Made by a program: the position numbers and the translations under genes. Shown here piece after piece: positions 2,039-18,091 of a stretch of 40,888 nucleotides of DNA (positions are counted from its first letter, which is position 1; each line of letters opens with the position of its first letter). The notes beneath the pieces are model-generated. The model had not been told where the DNA came from, ran no database searches, and saw only the letters and a program-made list of their open reading frames with translations. The stretch lies in the NCBI GenBank assembly GCA_902793635.1, contig CADBEA010000020.1, positions 1 through 40,888 on the forward strand. Reading direction: 5' to 3'. Origin of the DNA: an uncultured Erysipelotrichaceae bacterium (lineage in GTDB: Bacteria; Bacillota_I; Bacilli_A; Erysipelotrichales; Erysipelotrichaceae).

Positions 2039-2131
2039 TCTTTTCAGATTATTATTCCTGCATACTCCGACAAACGGTAAAATATATGTAATCAGTATCA
2101 GATGTTTATAATGCAGCTGCAGGAGGGCAGT

Positions 2132-5100
2132 ATGGCCAGAAAAGCACTGAAATATACCCTTGAGGATTCTTCTAAAGAGAAAAATAAAAATAAGAAAGCA
2201 TTTGTGGACCGGGTGGTTCCGATTCAATGCTTTGAAAGGGAACTGAATGAGCTGAGAGAAGATCATGATGCTTTTTCAGTACTTTATTACTGGGGTGTCG
2301 GCGGTATCGGCAAAACTCATCTGATGGAACATTTGCTGCGTGAAGCCGATCATTCCTCCGATTCGACCATGCTGATCGATACTATGCCGGCGCTTCTTGG
2401 CGAAGATCAGCTCAGAGTCAAATACTCACTGGATATCTCAACCAATGAAGTTGAAGTCCTTTATAGGCTCCGTACAAAGCTGAAGGAAGAGTATAAGAAA
2501 AGATGCGATAAGGATTTTGATTTCCTGTTATTTGATATTGCTGTTGCAGCGTATGAAGAAAAATCCGATGAAGAACACAGGATCGGGGAAAAGTCCTCAT
2601 CGCGTAGCAGTATTCTGGAAGACCTGAAGAGTATGGGCGAAGTGGCCGGTATTTCAATTCCTTTTTATGACGTCTATGAAAAGGTGAAAAAGGGCTACAG
2701 TGCGACGAAGAATATCATGAGCAGATATGCCGAAGGTAAAGTGCTGAATCAGTATGCGGAATATATCACATCACTGAACAACAGCAGTTCGGAACAACTG
2801 CTCAAAAGACTGCACAGAGGATTCAGCTATGACCTGGTGCGCATGATCGAAAGCCTGCAGAAGAGTTTTCCGGAATCTCTTCCCGTCGTGATCGCAATCG
2901 ATACTCTGGAACGTCTGGATTATAAGACGACAGAAAATATCAATAATCCCGAATATGATGATTCATGGCTGTTTGGCCGTCCGGATACTGACGGGCAGTA
3001 TGTAGGCGGACTGATCGAGTCTGTTCCTTCTGTGCTCTGGCTTTTGTGCGGAAGGGACCAGATCGATGACAGAAAACTGTCCTCAGAATATCAGATCAGA
3101 ATTGATAAACTGGCAGAATCAGATGTCAAAGAGCTTCTGGAAATCAGAGATGTCAATGTTTCTGATGAGATTGCAGCAACCATCTGTGAAGTGACTGAAG
3201 GTGTTCCGGTATATGTAGATATCTGTATCGATATGTGCATTGAAAAAGATGAAAACGTGACAAAAAAGGATTTTGAAGGCGGAATCACCCAGATCGTAAA
3301 CCGTTATCTGCAGCTGATGAGTGATCAGGACAAGCTGAATCTATATCTTATGTCGAGTCTCGGACAATGGACAGATGACGATTTCAAAGCGATATCGGAT
3401 CGACTCAGCGATTTCAGAAGCCTTGAGATCAGCTATAACAAATTGATGAGAAAATCGTTCATCTACACAGATGACGGAGTCAGAAGGATCTTCCATAACA
3501 TCGTAAGAGAAGCAATCTTTGCTGACCGCGATTATTCACCTGGCAGTAAAAAGGAAAATCTCAAGGCTATCACCGGATATTACAAAGAACAGCTGAACAG
3601 AAAAGAAATCAGTAACGAAAGAGTGTTGTTCCTGACGGATCGGATTATTTTTCTGTGCCAGGAAATCATATCCGGCAGAGATGAATTTGAATATATAAGG
3701 CCGCTGTTTGATTTATGCAGCAGGGCTTTGAAGACAGTGAATATTCATAAGGATCTGGAACTGAAACTGGCTGTTTACAACAATGCGGATCAATATGGTC
3801 TCAGTAACAGAGAAAAAAGCTCTGTCGAATTAGTTCTTTCGGCTTCTTATTCGCTGAACGGAAATGAACAGGAAGCGCTGAAACTGAAGGAACATGCTGT
3901 AAATAACCTGATATCTGAATATGGAGAAAAGGATCATGTTGCTATAAGGGGGTTGAATGATCTTGCAAATTCGCACTATACACTGGGGCATTATGAAGAA
4001 GCTTTGAAAATCCGTGAAAGATTATATGAAACATGCAAGGAAGTGTTTGGCGATGATGATGATCTGACTCATATTGTGCTGTTTAATCTTTCGAATTCAT
4101 TATCCAGGGCAGGGAAAAAAGAAGAAGCTCTCAGGATTCTGGAAGAATTGTATGACATTCGAAAAAAAAGGTTTGGAGAAGATCACCCGGATACATTAAT
4201 GACACTGAATAATATAGGAAGCCGATATTCTGACTCGGGTCAATATGAGGAAGCGAGAAAACTCTTTGAAGAAGTATATCAAAAGCGAAATGTGATTCTG
4301 GGAGAGAATCATCCTGATACCTTGAATGCTCTATATAATCTTTCCACTGCCTGCAGCAAACTTGGGATGAAAAGTGAAGCACTGCAGTATGCGGAAAAGG
4401 TGTACGAAAAACAGAAAGAGATGCTTGGGGAGACACATCCCGAAACTCTGAAGACCCTGAATGATTTGTCAGATATCTATGCTGCTCTTGGTCGGAATCA
4501 GGAGGCACTGGAAGCTGGAATAACAGTATATGAGCAGCGAAGAATACTGTTTGGAGAGAGTCATGAATTTACAATTTCTGTATTACGAACACTTCCTTCT
4601 AAATATACGAAGGTTGGCCGTAATCAGGAAGCGCTGAATACCAGCAAAGCAGTATATGAAAACTATACGAAAACATTAGGGGAATCTCATCCCACTACAC
4701 TTGCCTGGCTTAACTCTATAGGACCTTTATATTACTTGATGAATCAGATCGTGGAGGCGAAGGATTGTTATCAACGGACTCTGGCCGCTTGTAAACAGAA
4801 GGATGTATTGACAGACAAAGAGGAAGCAGTCATGTCGGAAGCACTTTTCTGGCTGGCGGAGATCAATGCTGCAGATCAGAAAGTGAGTGAGGCGGAAGAA
4901 CTGTATAATAACACCTTCCAATATCTGCAGAAAACTTATGAGTCCGACAATGAAGGATTCCTCAGATCATACCTGGGAAAATGCTTTAAGTATCTGTATT
5001 TCCTGAATAAGCAGAATAAAAAGGAAAAATCACTTGAGATATATCAGAATGCAATCAGAGCTTTCAGGGACCTGAGACTTATGAAAGACAGAAAGCCTGA

Positions 5101-5482
5101 CAATCAGGAACTTGATACATACTATAGAGCCGGAATGACAGCGATCAGACTTGGAAAGAAGGATGAAGGATTTATTTGGCTTCTTGAATTGGTCCGTCTT
5201 ATGGAAGATTATTCAGTGGTCGGTTATGAAAAAAGAAAAGCGAATGTCTTTCATCTGTATGCTCTGTTTTTTGAAGTCAATGGACAGTTTCAGGACGCAA
5301 TTTTATATCATAACAAAGCATTGGATCTCTATATGGAACTCTCGAAGGAAGATCCGAAATGTCTTGAAAAAGTGGATCAATGTGCAGAGAGACTCTGCCG
5401 GCTTTATGAAACAAACGGAAATCCTGAAGAAGCAGAACGCATTCGCGGATTGAAGGATACGGCGCATGCCCAAAATGGGTGA
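2132..5482 (+). CDS. STAND-type P-loop NTPase with TPR repeats
   Basis: The predicted product has 1116 residues. A Walker A motif (GVGGIGKT, residues about 55-62) is followed by a Walker B-like VVIAIDTLERLD (about residue 255) and a sensor-like strand ending in LLCGRD. A winged-helix-like segment comes next (about 380-480). From about residue 600 to 890 there are tandem 42-residue TPRs of kinesin-light-chain type, each with a G-E-x-H-P-x-T-L signature at a 126-nt spacing. Further TPR-like helices run to about 1110. This is the STAND layout: ATPase switch plus repeat sensor. No N-terminal effector domain or transmembrane segment is visible. The start at 2132 has AGGAGGG 4 nt upstream; an in-frame ATG at 2102 lacks this. 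STAND-TPR proteins include phage-sensing immune ATPases and transcription activators. The defence role is inferred. Confidence 0.82.
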   Translation: MARKALKYTLEDSSKEKNKNKKAFVDRVVPIQCFERELNELREDHDAFSVLYYWGVGGIGKTHLMEHLLREADHSSDSTMLIDTMPALLGEDQLRVKYSLDISTNEVEVLYRLRTKLKEEYKKRCDKDFDFLLFDIAVAAYEEKSDEEHRIGEKSSSRSSILEDLKSMGEVAGISIPFYDVYEKVKKGYSATKNIMSRYAEGKVLNQYAEYITSLNNSSSEQLLKRLHRGFSYDLVRMIESLQKSFPESLPVVIAIDTLERLDYKTTENINNPEYDDSWLFGRPDTDGQYVGGLIESVPSVLWLLCGRDQIDDRKLSSEYQIRIDKLAESDVKELLEIRDVNVSDEIAATICEVTEGVPVYVDICIDMCIEKDENVTKKDFEGGITQIVNRYLQLMSDQDKLNLYLMSSLGQWTDDDFKAISDRLSDFRSLEISYNKLMRKSFIYTDDGVRRIFHNIVREAIFADRDYSPGSKKENLKAITGYYKEQLNRKEISNERVLFLTDRIIFLCQEIISGRDEFEYIRPLFDLCSRALKTVNIHKDLELKLAVYNNADQYGLSNREKSSVELVLSASYSLNGNEQEALKLKEHAVNNLISEYGEKDHVAIRGLNDLANSHYTLGHYEEALKIRERLYETCKEVFGDDDDLTHIVLFNLSNSLSRAGKKEEALRILEELYDIRKKRFGEDHPDTLMTLNNIGSRYSDSGQYEEARKLFEEVYQKRNVILGENHPDTLNALYNLSTACSKLGMKSEALQYAEKVYEKQKEMLGETHPETLKTLNDLSDIYAALGRNQEALEAGITVYEQRRILFGESHEFTISVLRTLPSKYTKVGRNQEALNTSKAVYENYTKTLGESHPTTLAWLNSIGPLYYLMNQIVEAKDCYQRTLAACKQKDVLTDKEEAVMSEALFWLAEINAADQKVSEAEELYNNTFQYLQKTYESDNEGFLRSYLGKCFKYLYFLNKQNKKEKSLEIYQNAIRAFRDLRLMKDRKPDNQELDTYYRAGMTAIRLGKKDEGFIWLLELVRLMEDYSVVGYEKRKANVFHLYALFFEVNGQFQDAILYHNKALDLYMELSKEDPKCLEKVDQCAERLCRLYETNGNPEEAERIRGLKDTAHAQNG

Positions 5483-5645: not shown

Positions 5646-5714
5646 GGTGGGCAGGAAGGCTTCCGGCGGTTTTGGGAGTGATTTGACCGAGGGTCAGGGG
5701 TGGCGGAAAATTTT

Positions 5715-5757
5715 GGGCTGGGCATCATCGGTTGTCGGTGGTGCCCAGCCCGTTTTT
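5715..5757 (+). terminator. long-stem terminator or attenuator before XRE copy 2
   Basis: The arm at 5715-5729 pairs with 5737-5751: a 10-bp perfect GC-rich part plus five further pairs including G-U pairs, with a 7-nt loop. GTTTTTG follows. The stem lies about 100 nt before the second XRE start, so it could be a second terminator for the STAND transcript or an attenuator for the XRE gene. Confidence 0.75.
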
Positions 5758-5852
5758 GCTTTTGGTCGGAACGCTGTTCCGGTGCCTGCGGCGCATTTTG
5801 TGCACAATATGCACAGATGGTGCATTCTTGGGGTCTTACGGGTGGGGTGGTT

Positions 5853-6188
5853 GTGAGATACGCTTTGAATGACACCATGAATGATGACAGAGACTACATT
5901 TACGATATCCGCTCGATCGGGATCCGGATCAGGCTTCTGCGGGAGCTGAAGCATGTGACGCAGAAGGAACTGGGTGAAACGATCGGGCTTTCACGGGAGC
6001 GTTTCAGCAAGGCGGAGAATGGCAACAAGGGACTATCGCCTGAGATCATGATGCGCCTGGCAGATTACTTTGAGGTTCCGCTGGAGTTTCTGTATTTCGG
6101 CAGGGTGAAGGATGTGCGGTTAAAGGATCAGCTGCTTGAAGTGGCAGAGGTGCTCTGTCTGCTGGCCGGCGAAAAGAAAGAGCAGTGA
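5853..6188 (+). CDS. XRE-family HTH regulator (copy 2)
   Basis: A 111-residue Cro/CI-type regulator paralogous to the gene at 1709. The shared core includes DYIYDIRSIGIRIRLLRELK, an HVTQKELGETIGLSRERFSK helix-turn-helix, and SPEIMMRLADYFEVPLEFL. The GTG at 5853 is chosen because the alignment with the first copy then begins at the same position, and GGGG lies 5 nt upstream. ATG at 5877 is the alternative. Its codons are richer in G/C than those of copy 1. The downstream SHOCT-like gene begins 18 nt after its stop, so it probably heads the recombination cassette transcript and may repress it. Confidence 0.76.
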   Translation: MRYALNDTMNDDRDYIYDIRSIGIRIRLLRELKHVTQKELGETIGLSRERFSKAENGNKGLSPEIMMRLADYFEVPLEFLYFGRVKDVRLKDQLLEVAEVLCLLAGEKKEQ

Positions 6189-6502: not shown

Positions 6503-6712
6503 ATGGATAATCTGTTGATGCGTGTTGAGGATGCCGCAGGAATCCTGCAGAGGGAACGGCATTACGTCTATAAGATGCTGAAGCTGGGAAAGCTGAAAGG
6601 TGTCAGGCTGCTGGGCAGATGGATGATCTACAGCGACAGCGTATATGAATTCCTCAGACAAAGGGAAGAGGATGAAAGAAACGAAGCTGCACGAAAATGT
6701 CGGAAGATCTGA
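6503..6712 (+). CDS. excisionase-like HTH protein
   Basis: A 69-residue protein of the HTH_17/excisionase type. It begins MDNLLMRVEDAAGILQRERH, then YVYKMLKLGKLKGVRLLGRW and MIYSDSVYEFL. This is the MerR-like winged helix used by Xis proteins and small DNA-bending cofactors. A charged tail follows. AGGAAAGG lies upstream of the ATG at 6503. Its last 16 nt overlap the start of the next gene, implying translational coupling. It is a natural candidate for the recombination directionality factor of the recombinase encoded downstream, though some HTH_17 proteins are simple regulators. Confidence 0.72.
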   Translation: MDNLLMRVEDAAGILQRERHYVYKMLKLGKLKGVRLLGRWMIYSDSVYEFLRQREEDERNEAARKCRKI

Positions 6713-7908
6713 GTGCAAAGGTTTACACGCCCGAAGGACTGGAAACCTTATCCGGTGAAATGCGTGCAGATGACGGATGTTATGACGGGACGATGGAAGA
6801 AAAGGCTGTGAGGCTGATCTATGATCTGTATCTTGACGGATACAGTCTGAAGCTGATCCGCCATGAACTGGTGCTTGGAGGATACAGGAAAAAGAGCGGC
6901 AGGGAATATAAGGAAAGAAGCATACTCGGAATATTGAAAAACAGGAAGTATGCCGGTAATCCAGAGATGCTTAGGTCTGATCGTCATTCTGACCTGCAGA
7001 AAAGACAGGCGGCTGGCGGTATGATCGATGAACCGGTTCCCAGTGGCCGTAAGAAAGCGATCATCCCTCAGTCTCAGTTCGATCAGGTTCAGGAAGAAAT
7101 CCGGAAGCGGGAAAAATGGGAACGCCTGAGAAGGGAGCTTGGAACAGTATTCCCGTTTGTCGAATGTGCATACTGCTCGTCACGTCTGAAGCGTAAAAAG
7201 ATCCATAACAGCAATCAGCCTGCCTATTTTGTCTGGAAATGCGCAAGGAAAGATGAAGGCAGGGCAAGTGAATGCCCTTCATCAAAGGCAGTTCATGAAG
7301 ATGCGATCATTCTTGCGTTTGAGACCTGCTTCAGGCAGCTTGCCTCTGAAGAGACGGATCTGATTACATCCATCCTGAAAAAGACGGAAAGGGATCTTGA
7401 AGAAGATGACCCTCTGATCCGGCTTTTGCGGAATGAAACGACACGAAAAGAACTGCAGGAAACTGAACTGCGCTTAACGGAATTACTGGAAAGCGGTCAG
7501 ATCATAAAGGCGGAATATGTGCTGCGCCATCAGGTCATCGTTCAAAGAATGAACGACCTGATCGAAACTGATCAGAAGCTGAAATGTGCCGGAAAGGTCA
7601 GGATCAGATATCTGAAATACATCCGGCAGTTTCTTCCGGATTTCGAAAAGGATCAGAAAATCAAGTTTGATCCGATCCTGCAGCATATCCTGGTGGAAAA
7701 GATCGTTGTCGGAAACGGTGAAGATCCCTTTACGCTTTCGTTCTTTGTAAGAAGTAACACAGAGAAGGATGGTGCAGGGGAAGAGATCCTTCTGGAAACA
7801 TCGATACCGTATCAGCATGTCCGTCTGGAAAAAGTGAATGAGAACCATGGCGAACGGCGGATCAAAGAAAACATCCGTGTCCGCATCCTGCGCAGTCGCC
7901 ATATATAA
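6697..7908 (+). CDS. serine-recombinase relative lacking the catalytic domain
   Basis: A 403-residue protein that aligns only with the DNA-binding half of large serine recombinases. It has a Recombinase domain (about residues 25-130; KAVRLIYDLYLDGYSLKLIR and SILGILKNRKYAGNP). A zinc ribbon follows (CAYC near residue 156, then WKCARK and ECPS), then a coiled-coil-like segment (about 225-310) and the C-terminal LVEKIVVGNGEDPF strand. The Ser-containing resolvase domain is absent. The protein starts just where that domain would end, and the frame is intact and coupled to the upstream HTH gene. This suggests a functional partner rather than random decay. It is a close parallel of the next gene in domain order. 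It may act as a DNA-binding accessory or directionality factor. Confidence 0.78.
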   Translation: MSEDLSAKVYTPEGLETLSGEMRADDGCYDGTMEEKAVRLIYDLYLDGYSLKLIRHELVLGGYRKKSGREYKERSILGILKNRKYAGNPEMLRSDRHSDLQKRQAAGGMIDEPVPSGRKKAIIPQSQFDQVQEEIRKREKWERLRRELGTVFPFVECAYCSSRLKRKKIHNSNQPAYFVWKCARKDEGRASECPSSKAVHEDAIILAFETCFRQLASEETDLITSILKKTERDLEEDDPLIRLLRNETTRKELQETELRLTELLESGQIIKAEYVLRHQVIVQRMNDLIETDQKLKCAGKVRIRYLKYIRQFLPDFEKDQKIKFDPILQHILVEKIVVGNGEDPFTLSFFVRSNTEKDGAGEEILLETSIPYQHVRLEKVNENHGERRIKENIRVRILRSRHI

Positions 7909-7924
7909 AATAAGAGGAGATCCT

Positions 7925-9994
7925 ATGGGAAAAGTTGAAAAGATCGAAGGTGTGAAAAGGGCAGACAGGAGTCCGGCTTCGCTTGCGGAGAAGGAACTGA
8001 GGGTCTGTGCATACTGCCGGGTTTCAACGGAACTGGAGGATCAGAAGAATTCCTATGAATCACAGATGCTGTATTACGGCAATTACATCCGGCAGCATAA
8101 AAACTGGCAGTTTGCCGGCCTCTATTCCGATGAGGCAATCACCGGCACGAAAACGGACAAGCGTTTCGGCTTTCAGAAGATGATTGCCGATGCGGAATCA
8201 GGGATGATCGATCTGATCATATGCAAGTCCATTTCCCGTTTTGCCAGAAATACTGTCGATACCCTCCAGTACGTCAGACGCCTCAAGGAGATCGGCGTTG
8301 AAGTCTGGTTTGAAGAGGAAAACATCCGGACTCTGACGATGGATGGGGAGTTGTTGCTGACGATATTGTCATCCGTTGCCCAGCAGGAGGTGACAAACAT
8401 CTCCGAACATGTACGGGCGGGCATGCTGCACAAGATGGCAGAAGGAGTGCCGGTAGGATTCTCCGAATGTCTTGGATATCGGTATGATGCCAGGAAAAAA
8501 GAGTTTACGATCGTTGAATCCGAAGCAGAAATCGTCCGGCTGATCTTCGATCTTTATCTGAGAGGCTGGGGAACCACCATGATCAGACGTGAGCTGAACC
8601 AGAGAGGATGCAGGACGAAGCGCAATGTGGGTGAATGGAACGAATCGACGATCATCGGCATTCTTAAAAACGAAAAGTACGTCGGTGATCTTCTGATGGG
8701 CAAGACAACATCTCTTGATCCGATCTCAAAGAAAAGGGTCCGTAATAACGGACACTCTGACAAGTTTCTGGTACGTGACGATCACGAAGCAATTATCTCC
8801 CGTGAGGATTTTGAAGCGGTGCAGAAGGAGATCGCCCGAAGGGCTAAGCTCCACATGACGGATGAGAAGGGAAGAAAGTCGAGACTCAGCACGGTCACAC
8901 CGTTTTCCTCCAAAATCCGCTGCGGTTTCTGCGGGGCAATGGTCAATCGTCGCAGCGTCCACAGCGGCAGTGCTTTCAAGAAGGTCGTATGGATGTGCTC
9001 GGACAAGGTCTTCCGCGGAAAGGAAGCCTGTCCCGATTCGAAGATGGTTCATGAAGAAATGATCGAGAAGGCCTTCGTGCAGTGTTTCAACCACATGATT
9101 ACCAACAAATCTGCAGTCATCAGTGACTTGATGAAAAAGGTGGAAACAGCACTGGCAAACAGTGATGCGGAGGATTTACTGAAGGAAAACAAAAGACGGC
9201 AGAGAGCGCTGGAAGAAAAGAATTCCAATCTGATCGATTTGTTGCTGGAAAAAAGGATCGAAGAAAGTGAATACAACCAGAAGCATTCAGACAATCTAAA
9301 TAAACTCCGTGCTCTTCAGGAGGAAGAAAAGTCTCTGGTCGAGATGAAGAACATCAGATCCGAGTGCATGAAAAGAATCAATTCATTTCAGAAGCTATTG
9401 GAAAGAAAAGAGCCAATGGCAGAATTTGATCCAATGATATTTAACGAATTGGTCGAGAACGTCATTATTGGTGGTTATACCAACGGTAAGCCAGATCCTT
9501 TCAAATTATTGTTTGTCTTTAAAACAGGATTATCTTCTTCGACAGACAGTTCTCAGTTCAGAACTGATAAACGTTTCAAGAAAACTGTAAATAAAATAGA
9601 ACAAAACAAACCTGTAGTGATGATTTCAGGTAATAAGAGTCAGAACAGTACCGTAGATGGTTCAAAACCAGTAATGTACTCCGGAGCAACTGATAACAGT
9701 GAGGTAATGGATTATTTAACTGGAAAAAAGACCATCGTTCTGCTGGTCATTTCCGTGCTTTTTCTGCTTACGGTTCCCAACATTCAGAAGACCATGGAAA
9801 TCGTCAATAACAAAGGCTGCAAAGCAATTGAGAAGGTGGCGGATGCCGCGATCCTCGAGTACAAAATGCAGTATGACGATTATCCTGGCAGCGTCTCCGA
9901 CCTGATCGCGGCAGGACTGCTCAGCGAGGATCAGGCGACCTGCGGCGGCAATAAGACACTGGTGATCTCCGGTGGCCAGGCCTACGTTGAATAG
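7925..9994 (+). CDS. large serine recombinase fused in frame to ComGC C-terminus
   Basis: The reading frame encodes 689 residues. The N-terminal catalytic domain has YCRVSTE with the nucleophile at Ser34, plus SISRFARN and SSVAQQEVTNISE. A Recombinase domain follows (about 190-310; FDLYLRGWGTTMIRRELNQR), then a zinc ribbon (CGFC near 331, WMCSD, ACPDSK), a coiled coil (about 400-490) and LVENVIIGGYTNGKPDPF. From about residue 603 the sequence becomes ComGC (TIVLLVISVLFLLTVPNI onward) to the stop. The ATG at 7925 has AGAGGAG just upstream; an open frame to 7838 overlaps the previous gene. The recombinase has no stop before the junction, so the element end lies inside comGC. In the integrated state the product would carry the ComGC hydrophobic helix and could be membrane-tethered. 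Confidence 0.88.
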   Translation: MGKVEKIEGVKRADRSPASLAEKELRVCAYCRVSTELEDQKNSYESQMLYYGNYIRQHKNWQFAGLYSDEAITGTKTDKRFGFQKMIADAESGMIDLIICKSISRFARNTVDTLQYVRRLKEIGVEVWFEEENIRTLTMDGELLLTILSSVAQQEVTNISEHVRAGMLHKMAEGVPVGFSECLGYRYDARKKEFTIVESEAEIVRLIFDLYLRGWGTTMIRRELNQRGCRTKRNVGEWNESTIIGILKNEKYVGDLLMGKTTSLDPISKKRVRNNGHSDKFLVRDDHEAIISREDFEAVQKEIARRAKLHMTDEKGRKSRLSTVTPFSSKIRCGFCGAMVNRRSVHSGSAFKKVVWMCSDKVFRGKEACPDSKMVHEEMIEKAFVQCFNHMITNKSAVISDLMKKVETALANSDAEDLLKENKRRQRALEEKNSNLIDLLLEKRIEESEYNQKHSDNLNKLRALQEEEKSLVEMKNIRSECMKRINSFQKLLERKEPMAEFDPMIFNELVENVIIGGYTNGKPDPFKLLFVFKTGLSSSTDSSQFRTDKRFKKTVNKIEQNKPVVMISGNKSQNSTVDGSKPVMYSGATDNSEVMDYLTGKKTIVLLVISVLFLLTVPNIQKTMEIVNNKGCKAIEKVADAAILEYKMQYDDYPGSVSDLIAAGLLSEDQATCGGNKTLVISGGQAYVE
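9731..9994 (+). pseudogene. comGC: comGC, 5' end replaced by mobile element
   Basis: These 87 codons match the mature major competence pseudopilin ComGC without its first dozen or so residues. Present are the hydrophobic helix TIVLLVISVLFLLTVPNI, the NNKGC cysteine, DDYPGSVSDLIAAGLL and the second cysteine in ATCGGNK, ending LVISGGQAYVE. Missing are the start codon, the positively charged leader and the G/FTLVE peptidase site, which the upstream recombinase reading frame replaces. ComGC builds the DNA-uptake pilus, so competence should be off in this configuration. The 3' end overlaps comGD in the usual way. Precise excision of the element should restore the gene if the 5' part survives left of the element. 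Confidence 0.88.
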
Positions 9995-10298
9995 CGGCTT
10001 CACACTTGTCGAAATCTGTATGGTGATTCTGTGTCTTTCCGTGCTGGCATTGTTCACACTGCCGCCTCCCTTACCGGATACGGACAGTTTTCATACCTTT
10101 CCGGATGCCTATCTCAGGGCCCAGTCGGAAGCGATCCGCAAAGCCGATTATGCGGTCTGTTATTCCGAAGACGGCAGTGTGCCGGATATCACGTTCAATG
10201 AAAAAGGGAATGTGAACAAGGCGATGACTCTGCATTTTGAAAAGCACAGGACATCGGTGATCATCGAACTGGGAGGCGGCCGGCTTGTCTTCCGCTAA
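9972..10298 (+). CDS. comGD: competence pseudopilin ComGD
   Basis: A 108-residue minor pseudopilin. The prepilin peptidase site is visible as NSG/FTLVEI, followed by the hydrophobic helix CMVILCLSVLALFTL and a beta-rich C-terminal part ending in GGGRLVFR. The GTG at 9972 overlaps the end of comGC by 23 nt; TTG at 9987 is an alternative that shortens the leader. ComGD is a minor component of the transformation pilus with ComGC, ComGE, ComGF and ComGG, processed by ComC. Its transcription now depends on read-through from the inserted element, or on excision. Confidence 0.82.
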   Translation: MARPTLNSGFTLVEICMVILCLSVLALFTLPPPLPDTDSFHTFPDAYLRAQSEAIRKADYAVCYSEDGSVPDITFNEKGNVNKAMTLHFEKHRTSVIIELGGGRLVFR

Positions 10299-10506
10299 AA
10301 GCGGCTTCCTGCTGAGCGACGCGCTGATCGCGGTGCTGATCACGGCTCTGATCGGTTCTCTGATCACAGCCGCTGTCACACTTGTACTGCAAAGTCAGAC
10401 GGCAATCCATACCGCTGTTACGGAAATGGAAGATCACTATGAGGCAGGTTTCATGAATCTGAAAGGCTGTGCGATCACATACGGGGACGAAACGGATCCA
10501 TCATGA
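10285..10506 (+). CDS. comGE: competence pseudopilin ComGE-like
   Basis: A 73-residue protein with a type IV pilin-like N-terminus: KSG/FLLSDALIAVLI, with Asp at the position usually held by Glu5, followed by a hydrophobic helix to about residue 35. The remainder is short. The TTG start at 10285 overlaps comGD by 14 nt, and the end overlaps comGF by 4 nt. Assignment as ComGE rests on its position in the comGC-GD-GE-GF-GG order and on the pilin motif, not on sequence similarity beyond the helix. Confidence 0.68.
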   Translation: MSSAKSGFLLSDALIAVLITALIGSLITAAVTLVLQSQTAIHTAVTEMEDHYEAGFMNLKGCAITYGDETDPS

Positions 10507-10874
10507 TGACGGACGTTGTTCTTTCCGTCATGATCGTTATCATGCTGGTACCGGCTCTGATGATATCGGTCGCTGTCATGCATGACAGTCTGCGCTTCAA
10601 TGAAGAAGTGCAGGATGAAGTGGCACTGACCCAGCTGCGCCGCATTCTGCTGATCAGCTATGATCTCGAATGCCGTTCCGGTTCGCTGCAGTTTGAATAC
10701 CAGGGCAGAGACTGTGTTCTGCAGCAGGTCAACGATCATCTGATCATCCAGCCGGGCACCCAGATCATCCTGGCCGATATTGATTCCTGCCGCTTTGAAC
10801 AGATGGGAAATACCGTGATCCTTTATTATGAACGTCATGGACAGATATCACGGGCAGCTATCGCGGCTGTCTAG
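10503..10874 (+). CDS. comGF: competence pseudopilin ComGF-like
   Basis: A 123-residue protein. An N-terminal hydrophobic segment (VVLSVMIVIMLVPALMISVA) is followed by a globular part with the LTQLRRILLISYD helix, ECRSGSLQFEYQGRDCVLQQ and a VILYYERHG strand, which match the ComGF pattern. There is no clear G/F peptidase site after the ATG at 10503; no upstream in-frame start supplying one was found. This gene may therefore start atypically, or its product may be unprocessed. It overlaps comGE by 4 nt and comGG by 47 nt. Confidence 0.7.
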   Translation: MMTDVVLSVMIVIMLVPALMISVAVMHDSLRFNEEVQDEVALTQLRRILLISYDLECRSGSLQFEYQGRDCVLQQVNDHLIIQPGTQIILADIDSCRFEQMGNTVILYYERHGQISRAAIAAV

Positions 10875-11304
10875 AAGCGGCTTCATCAGCACGCTGTTTC
10901 TCTCGGTCTTCCTGTGCCTCTGTTTGTATACAGGCATTCTGGCGGCGAATATCAGAAACCGCAGTGAAGTGATCCTGAATCTGAAACGCGAACAGGAATA
11001 CTTTCTTTCGGAAGCTGATGTCATCAGAGAGGCCATGTGTACTTTGCAAAAAGAAAAGAAGCAGGCGGAAGAGAAGGAAAAGGAGGAAACAGAAGAGGAA
11101 ACCGGAGAAGCAGAGAAGACTGGAGAAGAACCGGAGGAGTGGCTCGGTGACACGGAGAAACTGACGGATCAGCTGGAAGGCAGTATTCTCAGGATAACGG
11201 TTGATGGGCCGTATCCGGAGGAAGTGCTGCTGACAATAGATCCGGAAAGTATGAAAGTGATTGACTGCATGATGCTGCGCAGTGAAGGAGATGACATCCC
11301 GTAA
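10828..11304 (+). CDS. comGG: competence pseudopilin ComGG-like
   Basis: A 158-residue protein at the comGG position. The N-terminus has RSG/FISTLFLSVFLCLCLYTG, a peptidase-like site and hydrophobic helix. A coiled-coil helix comes next, then an unusual Lys/Glu-rich stretch (about residues 70-105). The C-terminal part, SILRITVDGPYPEEVLLTID, is beta-like. The Met at 10837 is an alternative start. A rho-independent terminator follows, so this is the last gene of the comG operon. The identification is positional; ComGG proteins are poorly conserved. Confidence 0.68.
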   Translation: MNVMDRYHGQLSRLSRSGFISTLFLSVFLCLCLYTGILAANIRNRSEVILNLKREQEYFLSEADVIREAMCTLQKEKKQAEEKEKEETEEETGEAEKTGEEPEEWLGDTEKLTDQLEGSILRITVDGPYPEEVLLTIDPESMKVIDCMMLRSEGDDIP

Positions 11305-11311
11305 GCAGAAG

Positions 11312-11345
11312 AAAGACCGTATACAAGTAAATACGGTCTTTTATT
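11312..11345 (+). terminator. terminator of the comG operon
   Basis: AAAGACCGTAT (11312-11322) and ATACGGTCTTT (11331-11341) form a perfect 11-bp stem with an 8-nt loop, ending in TTTTATT. Confidence 0.88.
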
Positions 11346-11395
11346 GACGATCTGATTTCCGGATGGAAAGGGGTGGCTGCACCGGGACGATTTCA

Positions 11396-11423
11396 TTGAC
11401 AAAAGAAGGCATTTTAATACAAT
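11396..11423 (+). promoter_or_regulatory. predicted sigma-A promoter of efp
   Basis: TTGACA (11396-11401) and TACAAT (11418-11423) are separated by 16 nt. They lie 26 nt upstream of the efp start. Confidence 0.7.
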
Positions 11424-11449
11424 AATATAGGATAGACAGGTAGAGAAAT

Positions 11450-12022
11450 ATGGTAATTGTTAACGATTTAAAACAAGGTATGACCATTCAGGAAGATGGT
11501 GAATTATACAACGTCCTTAACGTTGATCATAACAAGACCGCGATGCGTCAGATGATCATTAAAGTTAAGGTCAAGAATCTCCGTTCCGGTGTTATCAAGG
11601 AACTGAACTACACCGGCGGTGACAAAGTTGAAGACGTCCGTGTTGAGAGAAAGGAAATGCAGTATCTGTATGATGACGGCATGAACCTCGTATTCATGGA
11701 CAACAACACATACGACCAGATTGAAATCCCGAAGGAAAGACTTGAATGGGAAATGAAATTCATGAAGCCGAATGACAATGTTCAGATTTCCGTATTCGAA
11801 AAGAACGAAAACGAATCCGAGATCCTCGGTGTCATTCTTCCGGATAAGGTCGAACTGCAGATCACAGAGTGCGAGCAGGCAGTCAAGGGTGACACAGCCA
11901 CATCTGCTTCCAAGAACGCTGTTGTTGAAACTGGTCTGCAGATCAAAGTCCCGCTGTTCATTCAGAACGGTGAGATGGTAGTGATTTCCACTGTTACAGG
12001 TGAATATTCCGGCCGTGCTTAA
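11450..12022 (+). CDS. efp: elongation factor P, atypical tip loop
   Basis: A 190-residue EF-P with the three OB-like domains: N-terminal VNDLKQGMTIQEDGELYNVL, a middle domain with YDDGMNLVFMDNNTYDQIEI, and the C-terminal signature GLQIKVPLFIQNGEMVVIST. EF-P rescues ribosomes stalled at polyproline. The domain I loop that normally reads K-P-G-K-G, with a modifiable Lys or Arg at the tip, here reads H-N-K-T-A-M-R-Q at the same length, so Met occupies the usual tip position. A single gene with its own promoter and a weak terminator, it follows the comG operon. EF-Ps with non-Lys/Arg tips are known, so it is probably functional. Confidence 0.93.
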   Translation: MVIVNDLKQGMTIQEDGELYNVLNVDHNKTAMRQMIIKVKVKNLRSGVIKELNYTGGDKVEDVRVERKEMQYLYDDGMNLVFMDNNTYDQIEIPKERLEWEMKFMKPNDNVQISVFEKNENESEILGVILPDKVELQITECEQAVKGDTATSASKNAVVETGLQIKVPLFIQNGEMVVISTVTGEYSGRA

Positions 12023-12064
12023 TTTGTACCGCCGATTTCCACAGTATTATTTCTCATAAACAGG

Positions 12065-12087
12065 ATGTGCTGCAAAGCACATTTTGT
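12065..12087 (+). terminator. weak terminator after efp
   Basis: ATGTGCT (12065-12071) pairs with AGCACAT (12076-12082) around a GCAA tetraloop. A short TTTTGT follows. Confidence 0.6.
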
Positions 12088-12118
12088 ATATTAAAGATTC
12101 CATTTTAGAGGCGACTTT

Positions 12119-14074
12119 ATGAGCAAGACATATTTAGGAGCAAAGAGAAAACGTACCAACACTCCTGCTGAAAACAGAAAAAGAACAGTTGAATACAGAC
12201 ATCTCAGATATGCGAAAACACCGGCAGTCCGTGATGAAGAAGAAACTGTGATCGTTCTGCCGGAATTTCCTCGGGCTGACGTAGCTGATGAAGCAGAAGA
12301 GGCGGTTGTCGTATTGCCGGAAACAGAAGAACCAGTTGGGGGAAAACCGGTTGTCACTGTTTCGGAACCGGTCAAAGAGAGTACTGAAAAAGGCGGCTTC
12401 TTCGCTAAAATAACGGCCTTCTTCGCCGGTTTGTTCGGCACAAAGTTATTAACGGACACAGATGTCGACGATGAGAATGTCCGGGCTGCGGAACTGCTGG
12501 AAGTACCGTCAGATTCGGAAGAACCGGAAGCAGAAGAAGTCTTATCAAAGACAGCTGAAGAACCGGCTGCTGAAGCAGATACTGCCGTACCGGCTGAAAC
12601 AGCTGAAACTGAACCGGAAGCGGAAGAAGCATCCGAGGCGGCTGAAACTGAAACAACAGAGGATACAGAGACTGAAACTTCTGAAGAAGAGACAGTAACT
12701 TCCGAAGAAGAGGAAACTGCAGAAGAGACAGAAACAGCTGAAGCAGAGTCTTCTGAAGAAGCAGAAGAATCTGAAGAAGCAGAGACTTCGGAAGAGCCGG
12801 CTGAAGAGGCTGAGACTTCTGAAGAAACTGCCGAATCGGAAGAGAAGGCAGAAGAAAGCGAATCTTCAGAAGAGGCTGAGGTTTCTGAAAGCACTGAAGA
12901 AGAAACTGACGCTGCTGAAGAAACAGAAGAACCGGAAGCAGCAGAAAAAGCAGCTGCGGTTACCGAGGAAACGGAAGAAACCGCGGAAGCAGTGACCGAG
13001 TCCCCGGAAGAAACTGAGACTTCTGAAGAAAAGGAAGAAACAGAATCTGAAACTTCTGAAGAGAAGGAAGTAACAGAATCCTCCGAAGAAAAGAAAGAAA
13101 AGACGGAGACTTCTGAAGAAACAGCAGAAGAATCTGAAAAGATGGAAGAGGAAACAACATCCGAAACTTCTGAAGAAAAAGAAGAAACGGAATCCTCTGA
13201 AGAAAAGAAAGAAGAGACAGAGACTTCTGAAGAAACTGAAAAAGTAACGGAAGAAGCGGAAAAGACAGACGAAGAAAAGGAAACGGAAACTGCCGAGGAG
13301 AAGACAGAAGAAACAACTGAGTCTGAAACAGAAGAAAAGAAAGAAGAACCATCTGAACCGGAGAAGCCGAAGAAGTCACTGGCTGAACGCTTCATGGAAT
13401 TCAAAGCTTACAGAAGACGCAAGAAGCTGGAAAATCTTGATGAAATGATCGACCGGCCGACAGCGAACATCCTGCAGATGATGGTCGCACCCGGCACAGC
13501 TATGGAACGTGTTTCCAAAGCAGGCTATGCGACAGTCAGCCGTTTCACGATTCTGGCATTCAATATCCTCAAATGGATAATCTTCGGCGCCTTCTTCGGA
13601 AGTGCTTTGCGGATGATCATCACATCTGTGGAATTCAGCATTGTGCAGATGAACTTCTCATCTGCGTCCGGCATTGCCGTTAAGATCGCTCTGTTCACAC
13701 TGGCGGCGGAATATCTCAGTTATTATCTGATTTCCATTGTCAGCGGACTGATGAGAAAGCAGATCACCATGCCGGTGCTGATCGACGTGACCGGCCGCTC
13801 ATCGCTGTCTTCCGCGCTGATCTTCCTGGTTGCCTGCTTTGTACTGAAGCACAATATGGCACTCGGCTTTGCGATTCTCATTGCCGGTCTGGTTTATGAA
13901 ATCGCCATGAAGACATACGGCATCGGCCTCGTATCGGAAGACATCAGCCGCAATATCCAGTTCTGGTTTATCGCTCTGCTGGTTGTCCTCATCGCCATGC
14001 TGTCATTCACATATTTCCGGATGACCATGAGCAATGTCGTTGAGATCTTCAGCAAGATCATGAATCTGAATTAA
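12119..14074 (+). CDS. acidic low-complexity multipass membrane protein
   Basis: A 651-residue protein with no recognised family. It has four parts. The N-terminus is basic (residues 1-45, KRKR and RKR clusters). An amphipathic GGFFAKITAFFAGLFGTKLL segment lies near 90-110. A long Glu/Thr/Ser-rich region (about 135-415) is built from degenerate SEE, TSEE and EETE repeats. The C-terminal domain (about 420-651) starts with SLAERFMEFKAYRRRKK and has four or five hydrophobic helices near 475-500, 520-545, 560-600 and 615-635. AGAGG lies 7 nt before the ATG. The gene stands alone between two terminators. The acidic segment would probably be a cytoplasmic disordered linker. The encoding GAA/GAG repeats create a long open frame on the opposite strand, which is an artefact. 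Confidence 0.78.
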   Translation: MSKTYLGAKRKRTNTPAENRKRTVEYRHLRYAKTPAVRDEEETVIVLPEFPRADVADEAEEAVVVLPETEEPVGGKPVVTVSEPVKESTEKGGFFAKITAFFAGLFGTKLLTDTDVDDENVRAAELLEVPSDSEEPEAEEVLSKTAEEPAAEADTAVPAETAETEPEAEEASEAAETETTEDTETETSEEETVTSEEEETAEETETAEAESSEEAEESEEAETSEEPAEEAETSEETAESEEKAEESESSEEAEVSESTEEETDAAEETEEPEAAEKAAAVTEETEETAEAVTESPEETETSEEKEETESETSEEKEVTESSEEKKEKTETSEETAEESEKMEEETTSETSEEKEETESSEEKKEETETSEETEKVTEEAEKTDEEKETETAEEKTEETTESETEEKKEEPSEPEKPKKSLAERFMEFKAYRRRKKLENLDEMIDRPTANILQMMVAPGTAMERVSKAGYATVSRFTILAFNILKWIIFGAFFGSALRMIITSVEFSIVQMNFSSASGIAVKIALFTLAAEYLSYYLISIVSGLMRKQITMPVLIDVTGRSSLSSALIFLVACFVLKHNMALGFAILIAGLVYEIAMKTYGIGLVSEDISRNIQFWFIALLVVLIAMLSFTYFRMTMSNVVEIFSKIMNLN

Positions 14075-14085
14075 AGACATGACAG

Positions 14086-14113
14086 GAACAGTCCTCACGG
14101 GCTGTTCTTTTTC
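14086..14113 (+). terminator. rho-independent terminator
   Basis: GAACAGTCC (14086-14094) pairs with GGGCTGTTC (14099-14107), one G-U pair, with a TCAC loop, and TTTTTC follows. Confidence 0.85.
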
Positions 14114-14133
14114 TGTCTGCGCATTCATAACAC

Positions 14134-14162
14134 TTGTCACTCCATGGCCGCGGTCTTATAAT
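14134..14162 (+). promoter_or_regulatory. predicted promoter of the FMN riboswitch-ribU unit
   Basis: TTGTCA (14134-14139) and TATAAT (14157-14162) have an ideal 17-nt spacer and lie directly upstream of the riboswitch. Confidence 0.82.
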
Positions 14163-14176
14163 GTAAAGCGATAAAA

Positions 14177-14280
14177 CTCAGGGCAGGGTGCAATTCCCGA
14201 CCGGCGGTAAACCCCGCGAGCCGAAAGGCCGAATCGGTGCGATTCCGATGGCGACAGTACAGTCTGGATGGAAGAGATCG
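14177..14280 (+). promoter_or_regulatory. FMN riboswitch (RFN element)
   Basis: The conserved RFN sequences are present in order: AGGGCAGGGTGCAATTCCCG, ACCGGCGGTAAACCCCGCGA, GCCGAAAGGCC, GGTGCGATTCCGATGGCGAC, and the closing AGTCTGGATGGAAGAGA. It controls the RibU-type transporter 75 nt downstream in response to FMN. A GCCTC/GAGGC hairpin at about 14322-14340 abuts the AGGGAGG ribosome-binding site, which suggests translational control. No convincing terminator with a T-run was found in the leader. Confidence 0.93.
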
Positions 14281-14354
14281 TTTATCCATTTCATATTCAA
14301 CCTGGAGGTTTTTATCAAATGCCTCTTTTCTTTTTGAGGCAGGGAGGAAACCAA

Positions 14355-14933
14355 ATGAATGATACGACAAAGAAACTGACAAAAATCGCAATTCTGGGAG
14401 CTCTGGCCGCGGTGCTGATGTGGATCGAATTCGCCATACCACCGTTCCCGAGTTTCTACAAACTGGACTTCAGTGAAGTGCCGGTACTGCTTGGTGCTTT
14501 CTCAATGGGCCCGCTGGAAGGCATTGCCATTGAAGCGGTCAAGATCCTCATCAAACTGCTGATCAAGCCGACTTCCACCATGTTCATCGGTGAACTGGCG
14601 AACTTTATCGTCGGTGTCGCGCTGGTTGTTCCGGCGGCTATGATCTACACCCGTAACAAGACCAAGAAGAGCGCCATCATCGGTATGGCTGTCGGTACGG
14701 TATGCATGGGTATTGCCGGAGCGCTGTTCAACTACTTTGTCCTTCTGCCGATGTATGTCAATGTCATGGGACTGGATGCGATCCTCGGAGCAGCCAGTGA
14801 CATGTCTGTTATCAAGAATCTCGAGACGCTGGTCATCTTCGGAACCTTACCGTTCAATATGATCAAAGGTATCATCGTCAGTGTGGTCACGACCCTGATG
14901 TACAAGCATCTCTCACCGCTTCTGCACCGTTAA
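14355..14933 (+). CDS. ribU: riboflavin ECF transporter substrate-binding component RibU
   Basis: A 192-residue membrane protein of the ECF S-component family, with about six hydrophobic helices (IAILGALAAVLMWIEFAIPP at the start; the last near VIFGTLPFNMIKGIIVSVVT). The segment FYKLDFSEVPVLLGAFSMGP and the GPLEGIAIEAVKILIK loop are typical of RibU proteins. It would bind riboflavin and work with the shared EcfA/EcfA'/EcfT energising module, which is not in this window. AGGGAGG lies just before ATG 14355; an open frame extends upstream into the riboswitch but is not translated. FMN control from the riboswitch strongly supports the substrate. Confidence 0.92.
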   Translation: MNDTTKKLTKIAILGALAAVLMWIEFAIPPFPSFYKLDFSEVPVLLGAFSMGPLEGIAIEAVKILIKLLIKPTSTMFIGELANFIVGVALVVPAAMIYTRNKTKKSAIIGMAVGTVCMGIAGALFNYFVLLPMYVNVMGLDAILGAASDMSVIKNLETLVIFGTLPFNMIKGIIVSVVTTLMYKHLSPLLHR

Positions 14934-14944
14934 CTGCTGATCAG

Positions 14945-14972
14945 CACCTGCCTTTATCTGGCAGGTGTTTTT
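14945..14972 (+). terminator. terminator after ribU
   Basis: CACCTGCC (14945-14952) and GGCAGGTG (14960-14967) form a perfect stem with a 7-nt loop, then TTTTTC. Confidence 0.9.
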
Positions 14973-15077
14973 CTTTGCTTGACAGAGATTCATGGCGGAA
15001 GGCAGTAAAAACAGCGTAAAAACAGGCAAAAAAACAGTCCTGAGGCCTGGATGAGGAGGCGACATTTGATTATCCTA

Positions 15078-15086
15078 TGATATAAT
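15078..15086 (+). promoter_or_regulatory. extended -10 promoter of the cmk-der-gpsA operon
   Basis: TGATATAAT is an extended -10 element 23 nt before the first start codon of the operon. The -35 region (GGCGAC near 15058) is weak. Confidence 0.55.
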
Positions 15087-15108
15087 TATCTGGATATTGG
15101 AGAAATTT

Positions 15109-16098
15109 ATGGCAGAGTTATCACGTACCGAAAAATACAGAGAGCTGAGGAACCGTCTTCAGCATGATATTGATGATGACATTTCGACAAAGGAACTGTC
15201 CAGATATAAACGCCGCCTGAATCAAATTAACTCTGACAACTTCGCGGCTCCGGAGGACTACACCGAAGATGATCATGATGCCGCACATGCCAAAGTGCTG
15301 CCGCCGTCTGATGATCCTATCTTCACGGAAACACCGGAAATCGATCTCGGCTTCAACGCTGACGATATCTTTGAACAGAACGAGAATCATTCCGGCTTTG
15401 ACAATGATTATCTCGATGAGTATATCCGCGAAGTAAAGCAGTACAACATTGATCAGGGACATGCTGTATCCGACAAGACCAGTCTGAATGTTCTGAATCA
15501 GCTGGATGCGACCCGCAAGATGCAGGAAGCGTCTTCCGCGCCGCTGCGTCCTTACCCGCGGCCGGCAACCTCACCGGCACCTGCACCGAAGCCGGCACCG
15601 GAACCGGTCAAACCGGCTGTCAAGCAGCCGAAACCGAAACCAAAACCGAAGGTGGAAGAGATCACCAACGAAACATCGGATATTCCGTACTTCGTACCGC
15701 ACGGCGGAAGCTTCGGCGGCAGTGAGAATACCGAGCGGATGGATCCGATTCCTTCAACTGCACCGGAAGAAGACACCAAGACGATGTCCAAGGAAGACAT
15801 CATGGCGGAAGTACAGAGCCTGGTCAACGGCAAACGTACCGGAACTTCCGATTATATGACTGATGATTCCTACCGCAGTCATCTTGATTCCGACCGCAAT
15901 ACCCGCCAGCAGCTGCTGAATGAAACAACGCAGATGCGGGCTCAGCTGGATGATTATGAAGACAATCTCAGCGAGGTCAACGACAAGATGAATCAGACCA
16001 ACCGGATCCTGAATATTGTTCTGATCGTTCTGATCGTCGCTGTCGCAGTTCTCTTATTGATCGTTCTTTACTGGATCTTCATCGTATCAGGAAGGTAA
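15109..16098 (+). CDS. single-pass membrane protein of unknown function
   Basis: A 329-residue protein without a recognised domain. The N-terminal part is charged and probably cytoplasmic. A Pro/Lys/Ala-rich linker spans about residues 140-185 (PAPAPKPAPEPVKP, then KPKPKPK). A coiled coil (QLLNETTQMRAQLDDYEDNL and SEVNDKMNQTNR) leads directly into one transmembrane helix at the C-terminus (ILNIVLIVLIVAVAVLLLIV). The ATG at 15109 has GGAG 6 nt upstream; a TTG four codons earlier is less likely. It is the first gene of an operon with cmk, der and gpsA, with only 5 nt before cmk. The layout resembles bacterial division or envelope adaptor proteins, but this is only an analogy. Confidence 0.75.
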   Translation: MAELSRTEKYRELRNRLQHDIDDDISTKELSRYKRRLNQINSDNFAAPEDYTEDDHDAAHAKVLPPSDDPIFTETPEIDLGFNADDIFEQNENHSGFDNDYLDEYIREVKQYNIDQGHAVSDKTSLNVLNQLDATRKMQEASSAPLRPYPRPATSPAPAPKPAPEPVKPAVKQPKPKPKPKVEEITNETSDIPYFVPHGGSFGGSENTERMDPIPSTAPEEDTKTMSKEDIMAEVQSLVNGKRTGTSDYMTDDSYRSHLDSDRNTRQQLLNETTQMRAQLDDYEDNLSEVNDKMNQTNRILNIVLIVLIVAVAVLLLIVLYWIFIVSGR

Positions 16099-16103
16099 AA
16101 AAT

Positions 16104-16775
16104 ATGCGTATTAACATTGCTATCGACGGACCGAGTGCTGCCGGAAAAAGCACCATTGCCAAAGAACTGGCAAAGATTCTGAATTACGTTCATCTCGATA
16201 CCGGTGCGATGTACCGCTGCACAGCCCTGAAGGCGCTGCAGAGCGGTATTGCGCTGGATGATGAAGTTGCTGTATGCGAGATGCTGAAGAATACGGATAT
16301 CACTCTGACACCGGACGGAAAGGTCTTCCTGGACGGTAAGGACGTTTCGACAGACATCCGCGCCGATGAAGTCAGTATGGCGGCCAGCGACGTTTCCAAA
16401 CTGGAAAAAGTGCGTGAAGATCTGGTAGCCAGACAGCAGGAAATGGCGAAAGCCAAGGGCTTTATCATGGACGGCCGTGATATCGGCACCGTGGTATTGA
16501 AGGATGCGGAAGTCAAGATCTATATGACAGCGTCCGCTTATGCGAGAGCTGAACGCCGCTACAAGCAGAATATCGAGAAGGGTATTCCGACTTCCGATAT
16601 TGAAACGATCGCCAAGGAAATCGCTGAGCGTGATTATCAGGACATGCACCGTGAACATTCACCGCTGCGCAAGGCTGATGACGCGACTGAGATCGATACT
16701 TCCGACATGACGATTCCGGAAGTGACAGAGGCGATCTATCAGCTCTGTGAAAAATTCCTTCAGAAGGAGGAGTGA
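16104..16775 (+). CDS. cmk: cytidylate kinase
   Basis: A 223-residue CMP kinase that phosphorylates CMP and dCMP with ATP in pyrimidine nucleotide salvage and synthesis. The P-loop GPSAAGKST is at residues 9-17. It is followed by the family motif HLDTGAMYRCTALKAL, by FIMDGRDIGTVVLKDAEVKI (which contains the substrate-binding DGRDIG) and by the lid-like ARAERRYKQNIEKG. The length is typical. AGGAAGG precedes the ATG, and the gene lies 5 nt after the membrane protein gene and 2 nt before der. The cmk-der-gpsA order is common in Bacillota. Confidence 0.96.
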   Translation: MRINIAIDGPSAAGKSTIAKELAKILNYVHLDTGAMYRCTALKALQSGIALDDEVAVCEMLKNTDITLTPDGKVFLDGKDVSTDIRADEVSMAASDVSKLEKVREDLVARQQEMAKAKGFIMDGRDIGTVVLKDAEVKIYMTASAYARAERRYKQNIEKGIPTSDIETIAKEIAERDYQDMHREHSPLRKADDATEIDTSDMTIPEVTEAIYQLCEKFLQKEE

Positions 16776-16777
16776 CA

Positions 16778-18091
16778 ATGAAATCAGGAGTAATTGCGAT
16801 CGTAGGCAGACCGAATGTCGGTAAGTCTACGATCTTTAATCGAATCGCCGGTCAGCGTGTTTCCATTGTCGAAGACACGCCCGGTGTGACCCGTGACCGC
16901 ATCTATGCCAAGGGCGAATGGACCGGCAGTACGTTTCAGCTGATCGACACCGGCGGTATTCAGCTGCAGGATCAGCCTTATCAGGAAGAAATCAGAGCCC
17001 AGGTACAGATAGCCATCAACGAGGCGGACGTCATTCTGATGGTCACCAACGGCAAAACCGGTCTGACTGATGATGACCGTTATATTGCCGGCATCCTGCA
17101 GAGACAGGACAAGCCTGTCGTGCTGGCCGTCAATTTCATCGATGATTCCACCCGGGCCATGAATATCTATGAATTCTATAACCTCGGCATCGGTGATCCG
17201 ATTGCCTGTTCCGGCATTCATGGTATCGGCATCGGTGATATTCTTGACGAATGTGTCAGACTGATGCCGGAAACCGATCCTGATGCCCGTCAGGAAGGCA
17301 TTCATATCGCCGTGATCGGTGAACCGAACGTCGGCAAGTCCTCGCTTGTCAACGCCATCCTCAAAGAAGAACGCTCGATCGTTTCCGATGTACAGGGAAC
17401 GACCAGAGACGCGATCGATACCGCTTTCGAACATGAAGGCAGACCGTATGTCATTGTCGATACCGCCGGTATCCGCAAGCGCGGCAAAGTCTATGAATCA
17501 GTCGAGAAGTATTCGGTGCTGCGGGCTATGACAGCCATTGAGCGCTGTGACGTGGCGCTGTTTTTGATCGACGGAGCGGCCGGCATCCGCGAACAGGACA
17601 AGCATGTGGCGGGTTATGCCAGTGAAGCAGGCAAACCGATCATCATCGTCGTCAACAAGTGGGACGCGGTCGAGAAGGATGACAAGACAATGAATCAGTT
17701 CATTGAACGCATCCGTGTTGAATTTGCTTATCTGTCCTATGCGCCGATCGTTTTCGTCAGTGCGAAAACACACCAGCGCGTCGATACGATCATCCCGGTC
17801 GTCGACAGGGTCTATGAAAATGCCTGCCGCCGTATCCCGACCAACATTCTCAATGAGGTCATCGCTGATACCCAGATCACCAATCCGGCTCCGGCCCGCA
17901 ACGGCAAACGGTTCCGCATTTATTACGCGACTCAGGTTGCGACCCAGCCGCCGACCTTCGTGCTTTCCTGCAATGATCCGAAACTGCTGCATTTCTCCTA
18001 CCAGCGTTTTCTCGAGAATTCACTGCGTCAGGCATTCGATCTTGAAGGAACACCGATCCGTATCATTGTCAGAAAGAAGGTGTCGGAATGA
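16778..18091 (+). CDS. der: ribosome biogenesis GTPase Der
   Basis: A 437-residue tandem GTPase (EngA/Der) needed for 50S subunit maturation. Domain 1 has GRPNVGKST near residue 10 and DTGG; domain 2 has GEPNVGKSS near residue 183 and DTAGIRKRG with NKWD. A C-terminal KH-like domain contains the ITNPAPARNGKRFRIYYATQ segment. In domain 1 the G4 motif, normally N-K-x-D, reads N-F-I-D, so the guanine-contacting Lys is absent. Domain 2 is intact. The ATG at 16778 is chosen because AAGGAGG precedes it; the frame also opens at a GTG two codons earlier. The stop overlaps the gpsA start by 4 nt. Confidence 0.96.
   Translation: MKSGVIAIVGRPNVGKSTIFNRIAGQRVSIVEDTPGVTRDRIYAKGEWTGSTFQLIDTGGIQLQDQPYQEEIRAQVQIAINEADVILMVTNGKTGLTDDDRYIAGILQRQDKPVVLAVNFIDDSTRAMNIYEFYNLGIGDPIACSGIHGIGIGDILDECVRLMPETDPDARQEGIHIAVIGEPNVGKSSLVNAILKEERSIVSDVQGTTRDAIDTAFEHEGRPYVIVDTAGIRKRGKVYESVEKYSVLRAMTAIERCDVALFLIDGAAGIREQDKHVAGYASEAGKPIIIVVNKWDAVEKDDKTMNQFIERIRVEFAYLSYAPIVFVSAKTHQRVDTIIPVVDRVYENACRRIPTNILNEVIADTQITNPAPARNGKRFRIYYATQVATQPPTFVLSCNDPKLLHFSYQRFLENSLRQAFDLEGTPIRIIVRKKVSE

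Follow-up and report, generated by a model that had tools for sequence, protein, structure and literature searches.

The disruption of competence genes by elements encoding large serine recombinases (LSRs) has been published before, one case being a pneumococcal phage in the very comGC codons considered here, and competence genes are enriched among LSR targets (PMC10083194). The pneumococcal comGC prophages use a serine integrase, have their core in these codons and abolish transformation (PMC7600539, PMC8637289). Their integrase, Int2b, comprises 481 residues and was aligned with TP901-1 Int by its authors (PMC8637289). Further examples are phi1207.3, which uses a GA target in comEC (PMC4260502), and a prophage in comGA of S. 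pseudintermedius (PMC7029219). Insertions into comYC, comFA, comK and comM have been read as a defence against removal by transformation (PMC4774983).

The locus analysed here is located in a stretch of 40,888 nucleotides (the window) from an uncultured Erysipelotrichaceae bacterium. Very probably, an LSR-encoding integrative element has inserted at a GA dinucleotide in the GFTLLEMT codons of comGC, yielding a recombinase-ComGC chimera and presumably disarming the competence pilus. The fused frame (7925..9994, + strand) consists of an LSR and a ComGC remnant. Its 689 codons are uninterrupted from the ATG at 7925, with AGGAG immediately upstream, to the stop codon at 9992-9994. As described in the earlier note, the recombinase lacks a stop codon of its own and reads into 87 ComGC codons that include both cysteines, which is confirmed by this frame and by alignment with the intact comGC of the nearest relative, G067. 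The Pfam matches of the chimera comprise the parts that define an LSR, namely the Resolvase catalytic domain (PF00239, residues 28-175, E=5.6e-32), the Recombinase domain (PF07508, residues 199-306, E=7.1e-28) and a zinc ribbon (PF13408, residues 326-385, E=5.6e-8). R32, S34, R105 and R108 as well as the zinc cysteines C333, C336, C358 and C369 are invariant columns in an alignment of 27-28 relatives. Judged from its sequence, the comGC recombinase appears to be an intact and complete LSR.

The conserved recombinase core (8006..9562, +, residues about 28-546) encompasses the catalytic domain, the Recombinase domain, the zinc ribbon and a coiled coil, and was delimited by Pfam, the invariant residues and a structure model. 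The model is confident until about residue 546 and has low pLDDT from 548 onward; it served only for placing the core end, the tail being of low confidence at the available alignment depth. The following recombinase tail (9563..9730, +) extends up to the attachment site and is variable to the point of being unalignable among relatives. In total, the recombinase is about 600 residues long. It shares 28% identity with TP901-1 Int across 325 residues, and at this low identity a close descent from TP901-1-type integrases is unlikely.

To the right, the frame continues into the ComGC remnant (9731..9991, +), which matches the NCBIfam ComGC model NF040999 at chimera residues 604-673 (E=4e-15). TIGR02532, the prepilin GFxxxE domain, is matched in the ComGC of the intact relative and absent from the chimera. 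The product of the intact G067 gene is 98% identical over the 89 common residues, and the DNA of the comG region is 86% identical across window positions 9726-18848. In a base-by-base alignment, the identity per 20 bases rises from 0.40 to 0.95 exactly at window position 9730, and the homology beyond this point is far more than chance similarity. The comparison with related genomes proposed in the earlier note thus gave a sharp boundary. The break sits within the conserved GFTLLEMT codons, and the motif GFT[L/M]LEM is found at the break point in 45 of 45 comGC genes of relatives examined in full. The GA dinucleotide at 9730..9731, where homology with intact comGC starts, is a candidate attR core; the crossover is placed there provisionally, since one visible junction cannot fix its exact point.

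Because homology begins inside the GFTLLEMT codons, ComGC has lost its leader, cleavage site and Glu5. In type IV pilins, this glutamate is required for pilin assembly. A ComGC pilin without these features should not form a competence pilus, and the earlier expectation that competence is off is shared here on these sequence grounds. Rescue of the pilin by an internal start at 9707 was considered and rejected, as the resulting peptide MDYLTGKKTIVLLV has neither GFTLxE nor Glu5. The hydrophobic helix of ComGC (9731..9787, +) is retained. No other 19-residue stretch of the chimera is strongly hydrophobic; the hydropathy maximum is 2.17 at residue 603 (next best elsewhere, 1.07).

An intact comGC elsewhere in the genome and the same fused frame in relatives, both named in the earlier note as contrary findings, were sought. 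No second comGC was found in a genome-wide search, and no relative spans the junction besides the window among the matches listed from 234 family genomes with a match. Downstream of the chimera, the gene order is comGD, comGE, comGF, comGG (9972..11304, +) and then efp. This agrees with the earlier annotation of comGD-GG and is based on weak family matches for comGD and comGF, and on position and synteny for comGE and comGG. Past efp, a putative membrane protein of 651 residues with a long Glu/Thr/Ser-rich low-complexity region is encoded at window positions 12119-14074.

On the left, the insertion is less visible. The window is the entire contig C20 of a draft assembly (G000; 79 contigs, 95% complete), and the left end of the element lies outside the visible sequence. 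In the relative G011, comGC is preceded, in this order, by murC, a DEAD-box helicase gene, nfo, ispG, two small genes, comGA and comGB. In the genome of the window, contig C45 bears the nfo-to-murC side and ends about 120 bases beyond nfo inside a repeat, which recurs at several other contig ends; a different repeat is located at the left end of C20. The short repeats at C20:71-170 and C45:1-96 are each 95-100% identical to several other contig ends, and they probably stem from insertion-sequence ends at which the assembly broke off at the locus. The earlier note had suggested looking for comGA, comGB and the 5' end of comGC to the left of the window. This search was unproductive: comGA and comGB have no match anywhere in the assembly, the 5' motif of comGC is not present in it, and ispG is absent as well. 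The left boundary is invisible for these reasons. Since ispG is also missing and the contigs end in repeats, a deletion of comGA-comGB is not assumed; an assembly gap is likelier than the joint loss of comGA-comGB and a core gene of isoprenoid synthesis. Of the proposed mobile element in comGC, the right junction is thus corroborated, and the second boundary is absent from the assembly.

Given that the draft comprises 79 contigs, that contigs end in repeats near the locus and that one junction is visible, the element might have been wrongly joined to comGC during assembly. This is extremely improbable. The join is located at the 3' end of the recombinase, where its kin have their att site, the GA dinucleotide is kept, and the codons are those used by the pneumococcal comGC phage, a pattern that a random misjoin would not produce.

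The remaining part of the element was characterized upstream of the chimera. Directly 5' of the full recombinase lies a recombinase paralogue (6697..7908, +) with PF07508 and without PF00239, i.e. without a catalytic domain. The same arrangement is found in locus L074. Paralogues at L074 (5905-6978) and L143 (7496-8569) likewise have no catalytic domain and retain the DNA-binding parts. Such paralogues could be regulators or directionality factors. Further upstream, a small HTH_17 protein (6503..6712, +; PF12728, E=6e-8) is a possible excision or directionality factor of the comGC recombinase. The sequence up to the contig end (1..6502) was assigned to the element by position and encodes a WYL regulator (201-1145, -) and two similar XRE-type regulators (1661-2038 and 5700-6188) on either side of a TPR protein of 1126 residues (2102-5482). 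A related WYL/HTH arrangement is also found 5' of the recombinase in L094. The TPR protein has an apparent N-terminal P-loop (GVGGIGKT), many TPR repeats and marginal AAA_16/AAA_22 matches, and is cargo-like; the label of a defence system was rejected, as PADLOC gave no match. No phage structural genes were recognised in the element proteins scanned from the visible 9.7 kb, and most of the element may be missing. Searches of IMG/VR, GTDB contigs and phage records revealed no close copy of the element (best match 51%). ComGC relatives in viral contigs are limited to two (32-34% identity), and the five ComGC matches among phage records are in short records that lack annotation and resemble host DNA.

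The relatives of the recombinase put the fusion into context. A motif of the rRNA methyltransferase gene rumA, HVETVVL, is found within the recombinase frame at rumA-type loci (L040/L094, which are one locus, L041, L048, L058, L095, L174, L175 and L176), always in frame +1 or +2 relative to the recombinase. An exception is L098, where the motif is in frame but follows the recombinase stop. Similarly, HQLYRY, a motif of comFA, is in frame +1 at three comFA loci (L051, L057 and L238). Integrated recombinases of this clade run into host DNA such as rumA or comFA because the att site overlaps the recombinase 3' end, and the host DNA thereby supplies the last recombinase codons. As far as these alignments indicate, recombinases of this LSR clade generally read through the att site, and the host gene is normally in another frame. 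The special status that the earlier note gave to the in-frame fusion is accordingly not upheld. Being a single example with a one-in-three chance, it looks incidental and needs no function. General selection for in-frame fusion was rejected, since the frames do not match at the other host targets. In the phylogenetic tree, in which the comFA rows are partial sequences, the comGC recombinase groups with the comFA recombinases (support 100/99). The next group is the rumA recombinase of G091 (96/94), and the surrounding clade is mainly rumA-targeting. The plain reading of this tree would be a retargeting from rumA to competence genes.

The single strong hydrophobic helix of the chimera, located in the ComGC part, underlies the proposal that it anchors the recombinase in the membrane or restrains its activity, thereby stabilising integration. 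The directionality of serine integrases can indeed be altered by C-terminal fusions, as in engineered integrase-RDF fusions (PMC5737554). However, the rumA and comFA relatives receive unrelated out-of-frame tails, and an in-frame fusion is seen in one case only. In phiC31 integrase, moreover, residues past the last strand are dispensable, linkers barely matter and long C-terminal fusions stay active (PMC5737554). A functional chimera is quite improbable on this basis. In a broader version of the idea, the att site inside the open recombinase frame allows the enzyme to end in either of two ways, with a tail read across the joined att site of the circle or with one supplied by the host. Integration would then rewrite the C-terminus and lock the element in place, the ComGC helix being an extreme case of this. 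By analogy with the engineered fusions, this would require the tail to set the direction of recombination (PMC5737554), and we consider such a lock a very doubtful speculation.

In the same genome, a second element splits comFA between CTT and HQLYRYY (L238, C24:16000-33009; L260, C13). C13 encodes the N-terminal half of comFA, and C24 the C-terminal half. Both junctions are readable, with attL as ...ACT followed by CATGGTGTATGAG and attR as ...GAAGAGG followed by CATCAGCTC; the empty site in G067 is ...ACC followed by CATCAGCTT. Joining the host flanks results in an uninterrupted in-frame comFA. The element end on C24 encodes a TraG/VirD4-type coupling protein and a MobL relaxase, and its recombinase is reduced to a C-terminal remnant at the right end. 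Read through a joined att site, the frame of the recombinase would continue into an element-encoded frame of 130 residues with a helix-turn-helix-like stretch, which has its own ATG and is possibly a separate gene.

The probed ComFA segment is present in 60 of 70 genomes of the genus. Most intact comFA frames have about 375-430 residues, and roughly 20 places have just about 200-255, many of these shortened frames being contig edges. Element sequence adjoining the comFA break was directly shown for five genomes (G000, G008, G069, G070 and G080). In G088 and G020, comFA ends at a contig edge right at HQLYRYY, and others end at or near those codons, perhaps due to mixed populations. Overall (L208-L257), comFA appears to be a hot spot of integration in the genus, at its HQLYRYY/DEPDAF motif.

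These observations bear on whether the comGC element is an active genetic switch, i.e. whether conditional excision repairs comGC and restores competence as for the Listeria comK prophage. The apparently intact recombinase, the HTH_17 protein encoded upstream of it and the precisely rejoinable host flanks of the comFA sister are in favor. By analogy with this sister, the earlier suggestion that excision would restore comGC and change the recombinase C-terminus is plausible for the comGC element itself. On the other hand, the genome has its comFA split as well, by an element with a recombinase remnant only, and ComEC (PF03772) has no match in the assembly; comEC may be lost, unassembled or itself interrupted. 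Repair of comGC alone probably would not restore DNA uptake for these two reasons, and a switch that controls competence is improbable. At the opposite end, the element could be immobile and the fused frame a decaying scar. The C-terminal recombinase remnants of comFA elements in the genus and the adjoining paralogue without a catalytic domain (6697-7908) point in this direction. They are set against a full-length comGC recombinase with all catalytic and zinc residues in 689 stop-free codons, so that a frozen remnant is unlikely, while retaining a real chance.

The preferred reading remains the integration of an LSR element into comGC. Its cause would be LSR-mediated recombination of the element's attP with an attB in comGC, and the left junction would be joined to the 5' part of comGC. 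With the att site at the recombinase 3' end, integration is expected to swap the last recombinase codons for the adjoining host sequence, here comGC in a matching frame, giving the chimera. With the truncated ComGC, the competence pilus is not expected to form, and the presumed loss of competence would shield the element from being removed through transformation. Directly observed are the right junction, the truncated ComGC, the overlapping att sites of the clade and the comFA-splitting sister element. They support the view that mobile elements escape curing by transformation through disarming DNA uptake.

Among the known systems, the Listeria comK prophage (A118/10403S type) is also a serine-integrase element that interrupts a competence gene, and its regulated precise excision has been reported. 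The comFA elements of the genus (G000, G008, G069, G070 and G080) share sister recombinases, a competence target and an att site at the recombinase 3' end. They differ by being out of frame, by a core around CAT and, in G000 and G008, by a C-terminal recombinase remnant. The rumA elements phi-SgaBSJ31_rum, phi-SsuZKB4_rum and Erysipelothrix phi1605 have recombinases that are 42-44% identical and whose frame also runs into the target gene. In contrast to the comGC element, they target a non-competence gene, near the 3' end of rumA, out of frame and with a short host-encoded tail. phi1207.3/Tn1207.3 in streptococcal comEC resembles the comGC element in its competence-gene target, the GA dinucleotide and the serine recombinases arranged in tandem at its right end (38% recombinase identity), and differs in comEC as target, resistance cargo and three recombinases.

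The pneumococcal group 2b/PPH100 prophages in comGC (comYC) likewise use a serine integrase (Int2b) and the same gene (PMC7600539, PMC8637289, PMC4774983). Their core ACCAACATCTCCACCAA is the reverse complement of TTGGTGGAGATGTTGGT and lies in the same FTLxEM codons. In both cases the pilin is truncated; transformation is lost in pneumococci, and its loss is predicted from the sequence here. No in-frame recombinase-pilin chimera was found described in the literature on these prophages. The recombinase of about 600 residues is set apart from the 481-residue Int2b indirectly, via TP901-1 Int (28%), and on this comparison independent convergence of two LSR lineages on the same comGC codons is likely, not proven. 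An apparently separate serine-recombinase lineage lands on the codons of the pneumococcal comGC phage, with sisters in comFA and one genome containing both. This extends the conflict between competence and mobile elements to the Erysipelotrichaceae and adds recombinases whose C-terminus changes upon integration. New compared to the described systems are the different LSR lineage, the host family, the in-frame chimera and the two com genes hit in one genome.
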